64,000 bases of DNA, taken from the NCBI GenBank assembly GCA_030949385.1, contig JAUZSP010000001.1:248001-312000 (forward strand), read 5' to 3'. How positions within the stretch are numbered: the first letter of the stretch is position 1; each line of letters begins with the position of its first letter. Shown here piece after piece: positions 47,108 through 64,000 of the stretch. The DNA comes from Gammaproteobacteria bacterium. GTDB taxonomy: Bacteria; Pseudomonadota; Gammaproteobacteria; JAUZRS01. Under the pieces are notes generated by a model. That model did no database searches, was not told the DNA's origin, and was given only the letters and a program-made list of their open reading frames with translations. Made by a program: the position numbers and the translations under genes.

Positions 47108-47344
47108 TTCAATCCTTAAAATACTAAAAATTCGCTAAGTTGCCCCAATTATTGCTTTTATTCTTAGCAATCCCTTGCCAATAATTACTTCACCCCCCCA
47201 TAGAAATATAGAAGACAAAAAGCAATAATACGAACCATTATCAACACTATGCTATCCTTCCAAGACGGCTTGTGAACACCGTGAGACATCATGCCCATTC
47301 AGACACACCAAATTCACCTTTCTGCTGCGGAGCCACTTCTTTGT

Positions 47345-48601
47345 ATGGCTAAAAAAGCACTCATTATCGACGATGCAGCCCACTTTCGCATTCTGATTCG
47401 ACAGATGCTGAAAACCTGCCTGCCCGACATGGTCATAGACGAATACGACCCACTGCTTAAAGAAAAACCCGATCACGATTTTCCGTGGGACGATTACGAC
47501 ATATTACTGCTCGACTACAACCTTGGAAAATACAACGGGTTAGAGTGGTATGAAGAATTTTCCGCACTCAAAGGCTTTCCGCCCACCATCATGTTTACCG
47601 GCGAAGGCAATGAACTGATTGCCGTCAAAGCCATGCGCACCGGCATCGACGATTACCTACCCAAAAAAGGCATCACCGTCGAAGTCCTAAAAAACAGCAT
47701 TGATGACACCTTGCAACGGCGGCAAAATCTCAATACCACCAGCACCTTACAACTGTCAACCGATCAAATTCTGGAAGCCAGCCCCGTACTCGCTCACACC
47801 CTGCTTTTGCACCCCAAAGCGATTCCAGATTACACCATTTTAGAACGCCTTGGTTCCGGTTCCAGCTCCATTGTTTACTTAGCCCAAGAGGATAAAACAC
47901 AAAAAAAAGTCGTGCTAAAAGTACTCGACCCCGAACGCGACAACGACCAGAACATGTTGGAGCGCTTTTTGGAAGAACATCGCATCATCTCCACTATTAA
48001 AACACCCCACATCGCCACCATCTACAAACAAGGCATTAACGACGATTTTTGTTACATTGCGATGGAGTATTTTCCCAACGGCAGTCTGCGCAGTAAAATA
48101 AGTCAGGGGCTAAAAAAAGGCCAGCGTCTCAGCTACCTGACCCAGATGATCAAAGCCCTGCACGCCATCCACAAACACGGCATTATCCACCGCGACATCA
48201 AACCCGAAAACGTCATGTTACGCGCCGATGACAGCATTGCTTTGGTGGATTTTGGCATCGCCAAACAGTTGGATGTGGAAAGCGGTCTCACCCGCCAAGG
48301 AGAAATCTACGGCACCCCCCACTACATCAGTCCTGAACAGATTTCCGGCGGCAGCACACCCGATGCGCGCAGCGATCTTTACAGCCTCGGGGTGGTACTC
48401 TACGAAATGATCTCTGGTCAGCGCCCCTTTCAAGCCGACTCGCTGCCCGCGCTGTTTTATCAACAGACCTGCGTTATGCCACCGTTTCTCAGAGACCCAC
48501 TAGACCCGATCATCCAAAAGCTGCTGAAAAAAGACCCCGAAGAACGCTTTCAAAATGCCCGCGAATTAATGACCGCCCTCGAAGCACACTGCACACATTA
48601 A
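47345..48601 (+). CDS. receiver domain fused to a Ser/Thr protein kinase
   Basis: The protein has 418 residues from the ATG at 47345 (MAKKALIIDDAAHFR); an ATG at 47291 is also possible. Residues 1-125 are a receiver: Asp9/Asp10, phospho-Asp57 in LLLDYNLG, Thr in MFTGEG, Lys in YLPKKG. From about 160 a eukaryotic-type kinase follows: Gly loop LGSGSSSIVYLA (the last Gly replaced), Lys in VVLKVLDP, HRDIKPENVML, DFGIAKQ and a full activation segment (GTPHYISPEQI). A histidine-aspartate signal can thus control Ser/Thr phosphorylation. It overlaps convergent sbcB by four bases and is divergent from the REC-HPt gene, a plausible upstream partner. Confidence 0.92.
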   Translation: MAKKALIIDDAAHFRILIRQMLKTCLPDMVIDEYDPLLKEKPDHDFPWDDYDILLLDYNLGKYNGLEWYEEFSALKGFPPTIMFTGEGNELIAVKAMRTGIDDYLPKKGITVEVLKNSIDDTLQRRQNLNTTSTLQLSTDQILEASPVLAHTLLLHPKAIPDYTILERLGSGSSSIVYLAQEDKTQKKVVLKVLDPERDNDQNMLERFLEEHRIISTIKTPHIATIYKQGINDDFCYIAMEYFPNGSLRSKISQGLKKGQRLSYLTQMIKALHAIHKHGIIHRDIKPENVMLRADDSIALVDFGIAKQLDVESGLTRQGEIYGTPHYISPEQISGGSTPDARSDLYSLGVVLYEMISGQRPFQADSLPALFYQQTCVMPPFLRDPLDPIIQKLLKKDPEERFQNARELMTALEAHCTH

Positions 48602-63143: not shown

Positions 63144-64000
63144 GTGAATAGAGAAGAAGCCCTCTCCGTACTCGGTATCAATACGGGAGCCAGTCTACAG
63201 ACGGCGGAAAAAGCCTATCAAATCAAATGGGATGCGCTCAAAAATGAGCAATCTAAAGCCAAGTCTGCTCGCGCTGGCAAAGCCTGTCTGCAACAAATGC
63301 AACGTCTGGACACCGCTCTGGCCGCCCTACGTAACAATCCAAACGTAAACTCACAAGAAGACGACAACGACAAAACCATTATCGCGCCGAAAGCACAGAA
63401 AAACGTCAAAAAAACCCCAAAAATTAAGCCAGAAACAGCGATAAAAGTCGAACATGACGACGATGACCTTGATTTTGAACTGAATGAAACCATCATGGTT
63501 AAGGCCTCTGATGCAGAAAAAATCGGCAAAAAATCAGCCATTCCCAGCCTAGAAGAGATCAGAGCAGAAACAGAAGTAGACGACGAAAACAAAACCTTTA
63601 TGGTTAAAAGTGACCGCGACCAAGAGTTGATGGAAAGCTTGGAAGAAGCGCTGCTCGACAAAGAAAAACATCAATTTTTCGATCAAGATGACAACAAAAC
63701 CTACGTTGCCGCCAGCTCAAAAACAACAACTCAAAAACCCACTGCGACAACAGCAACAACAAGTGCCGCAAAAACAGGTCACAAACAAGGCCTAAAAGAT
63801 CTACCACAAAACCCAACCCCTGATATTGACATCGACAAAACCATGCTTGGCGGTGTTGCCGCGACAGGTGGCAAAAACGAAGTTTTGCAAATAGGCCAAA
63901 GTTTGGTTCACGGTCGTTACACCATCACCGCTTTTATTGATAAAGGCGGCATGGGTGAGGTTTATCAAGCCAAAGACAGCGTGCGGGATGAAGAAGTCGC
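63144..64000 (+). CDS. Ser/Thr protein kinase, N-terminal part, with repeat-bearing acidic linker
   Basis: The gene starts with GTG at 63144 (AAGGA upstream) and runs off the window; 285 codons are visible. Residues 1-65 form a helical domain (EEALSVLGINTGASLQTAEK) that resembles a J-domain without HPD. Residues 68-245 are an acidic, Lys/Thr-rich linker holding five related motifs at Thr78, 116, 151, 186 and 233 (DNDKTII, LNETIMV, ENKTFMV, DNKTYVA, DIDKTML). From about 255 a eukaryotic-type kinase domain begins (VHGRYTITAFIDKGGMGEVY, Gly-rich loop at about 267-272). The linker threonines look like autophosphorylation sites that could dock FHA proteins. The catalytic loop is beyond the edge. 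Confidence 0.85.
   Translation, partial: MNREEALSVLGINTGASLQTAEKAYQIKWDALKNEQSKAKSARAGKACLQQMQRLDTALAALRNNPNVNSQEDDNDKTIIAPKAQKNVKKTPKIKPETAIKVEHDDDDLDFELNETIMVKASDAEKIGKKSAIPSLEEIRAETEVDDENKTFMVKSDRDQELMESLEEALLDKEKHQFFDQDDNKTYVAASSKTTTQKPTATTATTSAAKTGHKQGLKDLPQNPTPDIDIDKTMLGGVAATGGKNEVLQIGQSLVHGRYTITAFIDKGGMGEVYQAKDSVRDEEV

Follow-up and report, generated by a model that had tools for sequence, protein, structure and literature searches.

The N-terminus of the kinase PknG is disordered, and its autophosphorylated threonines Thr23, 32, 63 and 64 anchor the FHA protein GarA (PMC8546545). A phosphothreonine also features in PpkA-Fha signalling in type VI secretion, where the site is Thr14 of TssL in A. 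tumefaciens (PMC3953482). On the side of domain architecture, proteins joining a kinase to a C-type lectin/FGE domain include the DGR-diversified kinases of cyanobacteria (PMC7517822). Here we compare with these systems a Ser/Thr kinase, P0001, encoded at the end of the 64,000-nucleotide stretch analysed (hereafter the window, G000:C1:248001-312000).

The P0001 reading frame begins with a GTG at position 63144 on the + strand and stays open as far as the window end, so that 63144..64000 holds the first 285 of its codons. The initial annotation, confined to these residues, had called for the rest of the gene, which we recovered: it continues to about G000:C1:314479 and encodes 1111 aa. In order, the protein comprises a J-like head, a linker, the kinase domain, a transmembrane segment, a coil and an FGE-sulfatase/lectin-like domain. 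The head (aa 1-65, 63144..63338, +) is modelled as three helices and lacks an HPD motif, and the linker that follows (aa 66-250, 63339..63893, +) is acidic and Lys-rich. The kinase domain starts at aa 251 (aa 251-285, 63894..64000, +) and runs to about aa 515, beyond the window end; Pfam matches PF00069 at aa 262-486 (E 6e-46) and PF03781, the FGE-sulfatase family, at aa 874-1111 (E 4e-56). A hydrophobic segment lies near aa 530, followed by a long coiled region. The catalytic motifs are intact (ALKV with the VAIK Lys, HRDIKPEN and DFG), as in Hanks-type kinases. By its sequence, P0001 is thus a predicted membrane-anchored, active Hanks-type Ser/Thr kinase belonging to a J-like-headed family. 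A search of the genome gave ten kinase matches. The window holds a second kinase gene at 47291-48601 (+; L027:5292-6602), in which a receiver-like domain is fused to a Ser/Thr kinase, and a similar fusion occurs at G000:C7:7300-8600.

Five threonine boxes are found in the P0001 linker, all on the + strand: DNDKTII (Thr78, 63363..63383), LNETIMV (Thr116, 63480..63500), ENKTFMV (Thr151, 63585..63605), DNKTYVA (Thr186, 63690..63710) and DIDKTML (Thr233, 63828..63848). The Thr codons start at 63375, 63489, 63594, 63699 and 63840, giving Thr-to-Thr spacings of 38, 35, 35 and 47 residues; rechecked against the sequence, the boxes, Thr positions and spacings of the initial annotation were exact. The pattern [DN][KE]T[IVLMFY] occurs five times in the linker, compared with 0.148 expected and a maximum of three in 20,000 shuffles. 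The evenness of the spacing is likewise unusual, with P of about 0.003 against random positions and 0.0008 when five of the 19 linker Thr are picked; both the shuffle and the spacing P values serve as guides only, because the motif was defined after it had first been noticed by eye. We considered a larger repeat unit behind the even spacing and rejected it, as the sequence between the boxes has no common repeat. In an AlphaFold2 model of aa 1-515 the head and the kinase are confident and the linker is not: pLDDT falls below 50 over aa 70-134, 140-155 and 175-243, stretches that include all five Thr, and a short helix is predicted between boxes 3 and 4 (aa 157-175). None of the boxes is modelled with confidence against the kinase. 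The boxes are non-random and lie in a linker predicted to be disordered except for that helix.

We searched the DNA of the 2.87 Mb genome for a strict form of the box, [DEN]-hyd-[DN]-[KE]-T-hyd-hyd-[GAV]. Six matches were obtained, two in P0001, one in a paralogue, P0002, two in another paralogue, P0003, and one antisense to an RNase R-like gene, while the reversed control pattern gave none. On coding strands, the strict box of this genome is confined to three paralogous kinases, one of which is a pseudokinase. Across 185 genomes of the class the number of matches ranged from 0 to 6 per genome, and among the matches listed only this genus places two strict boxes within 1 kb. P0002 (505 aa, contig C7) has a head, an intact HRD/DFG kinase and four slots, three of them with Thr. 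The first (ESAETVMIPP) retains the Thr of box 1, the second is degenerate (LNHSRIQ), no slot corresponds to box 3, and the last two read HNPTLMA and NMDKTLLG at the places of boxes 4 and 5. P0003 (412 aa, contig C6, L007:7147-8382) is headless, with two strict boxes, at Thr17 and Thr59, and a C-terminal hydrophobic segment; its motifs read AIR, HGD and SGF, and since the VAIK Lys, the HRD Arg and the DFG Asp are thereby lost, we class it as a pseudokinase. The sister species yielded no orthologue of P0003. It had been proposed that the number of boxes might vary among homologues while their spacing is kept. Among the paralogues the number does vary (five in P0001, three plus one degenerate in P0002, two in P0003), but the spacing is not preserved, the values of 33, 23 and 45 in P0002 and 42 in P0003 not matching those of P0001. 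What stays constant across all three is the Thr, two hydrophobic residues and then a small residue.

Over aa 1-515 the sister-species orthologue matches P0001 at 98% of residues, and in the linker only three of 185 residues differ. We rejected this near-identity as a sign of selection, because synonymous divergence is equally low there: dS is 0.018 in the linker, compared with 0.30 in the kinase and values above 0.4 downstream of it. The low-dS tract runs from the gene start over ~1 kb (window 63144-64000 and beyond, compared with L031), at 0.02-0.07 versus 0.3-0.48, and recent recombination explains it better than selection does. The P0002 orthologue pair offers a fairer test of conservation. 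Its linker has diverged around the boxes (dS 0.89, dN 0.11), and each of the three slots that have a Thr (1, 4 and 5) keeps it; the box windows carry 6 changes versus 10 expected, which with P = 0.10 is a trend only.

Three FHA proteins are encoded in the genome, with the usual GR, SxxH and NG residues looking intact. Their genes, at C7:52099, C2:16066 and C9:23385, sit elsewhere and not beside the kinase paralogues: a pattern search covering about 10 kb downstream of P0001 and the surroundings of P0002 and P0003 revealed no FHA gene. The expectation that FHA or chaperone genes might adjoin the kinase was not borne out for P0001 or either paralogue. Nor did we see secretion-system genes at the P0001 locus. 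With respect to the C-terminal domain, no Avd or RT genes and no template repeat lie beside P0001, and the genome's only RT (L094:1-2136, G000:C6:168079) directly follows Cas2-like and Cas1-like frames; we accordingly dropped the idea that a DGR might diversify the FGE domain. Judged by eye, the RT locus is apparently an RT-associated CRISPR adaptation locus. In Vibrio gelatinilyticus, a member of the kinase-FGE family (L035:4866-9499) is a DGR target followed by bAvd and RT genes, with a 110-nt template/variable repeat pair whose 17 differences all fall on A in the template (17/17).

When 94 and 369 genomes were searched for orthologues, nothing emerged beyond the sister species and a single distant, kinase-only match. 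Screening 84,980 species genomes brought up relatives in Microbulbifer, Simiduia, Vibrio, Psychromonas, Alcanivorax, Gallionella, Accumulibacter, Steroidobacter and others. About 25 proteobacterial relatives have the J-like head; most also have the transmembrane segment and the coil, and often an FGE domain at the end. In these relatives, as in the alignment of 26 members, the five-box array is absent outside the genus. Since their linkers are short and mostly hold a single, different box, SQTK[LMF]AD[LM]P (SQTKLADLP), shortly before the kinase, the array is an elaboration at the genus level. The initial annotation had regarded a lack of the motifs in homologues as decisive against it; this objection holds in part, since the array is indeed missing outside the genus, whereas one Thr box ahead of the kinase characterises the family. 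Its distance to the kinase suggests that box 5 might be the homologue of SQTKLADLP, but the alignment of the 26 members puts that box opposite KQGLKDLP instead.

By analogy with the PknG N-terminus, we propose that the Thr boxes may constitute a multivalent phosphothreonine docking array for FHA partners, a reading to which we give a probability of roughly 45%. The linker between head and kinase would have gained tandem acidic Thr boxes in this genus; P0001, or its active paralogue P0002, would phosphorylate the box Thr in cis or in trans, and the phosphorylated boxes would then together offer a multivalent platform to partners with an FHA domain; the genome encodes three such proteins. P0003, with its two strict boxes and neither catalytic residues nor head, could serve as a scaffold and be phosphorylated by the two active paralogues. 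The PknG precedent and the three intact-looking FHA proteins make this plausible, and boxes that are above chance, evenly spaced, predicted to be disordered, confined to the paralogues and kept as Thr in the P0002 slots speak in its favour. On the other hand, no FHA gene is adjacent and relatives outside the genus lack the array. The residues at Thr+3 (A, V, V, A and G in boxes 1 to 5) are small, and the pThr+3 residues best known for FHA ligands are D or I/L. Moreover, slot conservation in P0002 reaches only a trend, the P0001 linker lies in a low-dS tract and P0003 has no sister-species orthologue.

Some of the same observations can be accommodated without an FHA reader. The boxes could regulate the kinase itself, either as sites of autophosphorylation or as pseudosubstrates, through their charge or by filling the active site in cis or in trans between the paralogues. 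Their confinement to kinase paralogues, their lack of linkage to FHA genes and the single SQTK[LMF]AD[LM]P box before the kinase in most relatives, as a self-regulatory site would predict, are in line with this; yet five spaced copies in P0001 and a pair on a dead kinase suit docking better than self-inhibition, and the model confidently places no box on the kinase, so that we consider such a role rather unlikely. The constancy of the Thr, the two hydrophobics and the small residue in all three paralogues might instead reflect short linear motifs that act unphosphorylated, binding a common partner or linking the three proteins, with the Thr kept for strand-type binding together with the two hydrophobics that follow. 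However, phosphosites are typically set in this way, with acidic residues before a Thr beside a kinase domain, and box 2 of P0002 contains a Ser, which leaves this distinctly unlikely in our judgement.

Lineage-specific drift, by which a low-complexity, D/K/T-rich linker expanded with no function of its own, has to be weighed as well. It would fit the genus restriction of the array, the low complexity of the linker, the uninformative close orthologue with its low-dS tract and the non-significant slot conservation in P0002, but the shuffle test and the genome-wide confinement to three paralogues speak against it, and we hold it to be improbable. Should the phosphothreonine docking array be confirmed, it would represent independent, multivalent PknG-style recruitment in Gram-negative bacteria. 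It would also mean that two active kinases and a pseudokinase carry one and the same tag, which makes cross-talk between the paralogues testable.

The head had been described as degenerate and J-domain-like, and this description is favoured, not proven, by profile and fold, with the HPD absent from all 27 aligned heads. A model built from these heads shows three helices; the pLDDT of the head is 80 when it is modelled by itself and 94-98 as part of the larger model. J domains are the top Foldseek matches, although weak (E 0.4 or more), and VIA-align returns Z up to 8.0 with Tim16 among the matches; as small helical folds easily give middling Z and also reach this range, Z alone is no proof of a J fold. 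The best PDB match of the family head profile is a J domain (E 0.0011), closely followed by GroEL helices (0.004). Pfam found nothing significant in the head encoded in the window, and DnaJ was not matched.

Independent support for the J-like reading comes from gene order. In six relatives (six genomes) the distance between the kinase gene and an Hsp70 gene is 4 to about 2,300 bp (L034:6986-9301, L037:2-2257, L038:7863-10182, L040:7719-10035, L044:7629-9209 and L046:3324-4847), and in 4/6 a PP2C gene sits beside the pair. These Hsp70s, about 505 aa long and 45-93% identical, form one orthologous group. No Hsp70 gene adjoins P0001, P0002 or P0003, and the window genome has no orthologue of this group, DnaK being its best match at about 30%. 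The divergent Hsp70 genes of contig C2 were considered as partners, and none is orthologous to the group. They form a cluster at G000:C2:64500-77600 (L108:6509-19605) in which four such genes, one with a vWA-like C-terminus, alternate with unknown genes and a dynamin-like GTPase closes the row, possibly an uncharacterised chaperone or defence system. A literature search found no described bacterial kinase with a J-like head, nor an Hsp70-PP2C-kinase cluster. It is conceivable, if doubtful, that J-like-headed kinases form the centre of a hitherto undescribed signalling module coupled to Hsp70, in which an HPD-less, Tim16-like head would dock a dedicated short Hsp70, this Hsp70 would gate the kinase, the neighbouring PP2C would oppose it, and this genus would have lost the adjacent Hsp70 and gained a tandem phosphothreonine tag shared with a pseudokinase scaffold. 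The link in the relatives between a J-like-headed kinase and a dedicated Hsp70 is the most interesting lead and the strongest follow-up, and the wider family poses the question of why the gene for such a Ser/Thr kinase is found time and again next to genes for an Hsp70 and a PP2C of its own.

Like Tim16/Pam16, the P0001 head lacks HPD, and its putative J fold matches 2guz_B (Z 7.7, rmsd 2.3 over 61 residues), but sequence identity is about 10%, no Hsp70 gene is next to P0001 and binding of the head to Hsp70 is putative. Like the kinase-lectin/FGE proteins, P0001 has an N-terminal Ser/Thr kinase and a C-terminal lectin-fold domain, to which it adds the J-like head and the Thr array, and it lacks an Avd/RT cassette or template repeat nearby. 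With PpkA-Fha signalling it would share the concept of a Ser/Thr kinase, a phosphothreonine site and an FHA reader, except that in P0001 the sites would sit on the kinase itself and no FHA gene lies next to it. With PknG of Mycobacterium and Corynebacterium, which works with GarA/OdhI, P0001 shares a disordered N-terminal extension (predicted in P0001) with several Thr before the kinase. PknG carries TPR and usually rubredoxin domains and has no J-like head, transmembrane segment or FGE domain. In P0001 no TPR was matched by Pfam after the kinase and an FGE-sulfatase domain is found instead, so it is not a PknG; its boxes share one consensus, and its phosphosites are predicted from sequence. 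The statement in the initial annotation that no described kinase has this layout was too strong, because it overlooked PknG with its disordered N-terminus, several autophosphorylated Thr and GarA (PMC8546545). The layout of P0001 is a variation on a known arrangement rather than the founding of a new kind.
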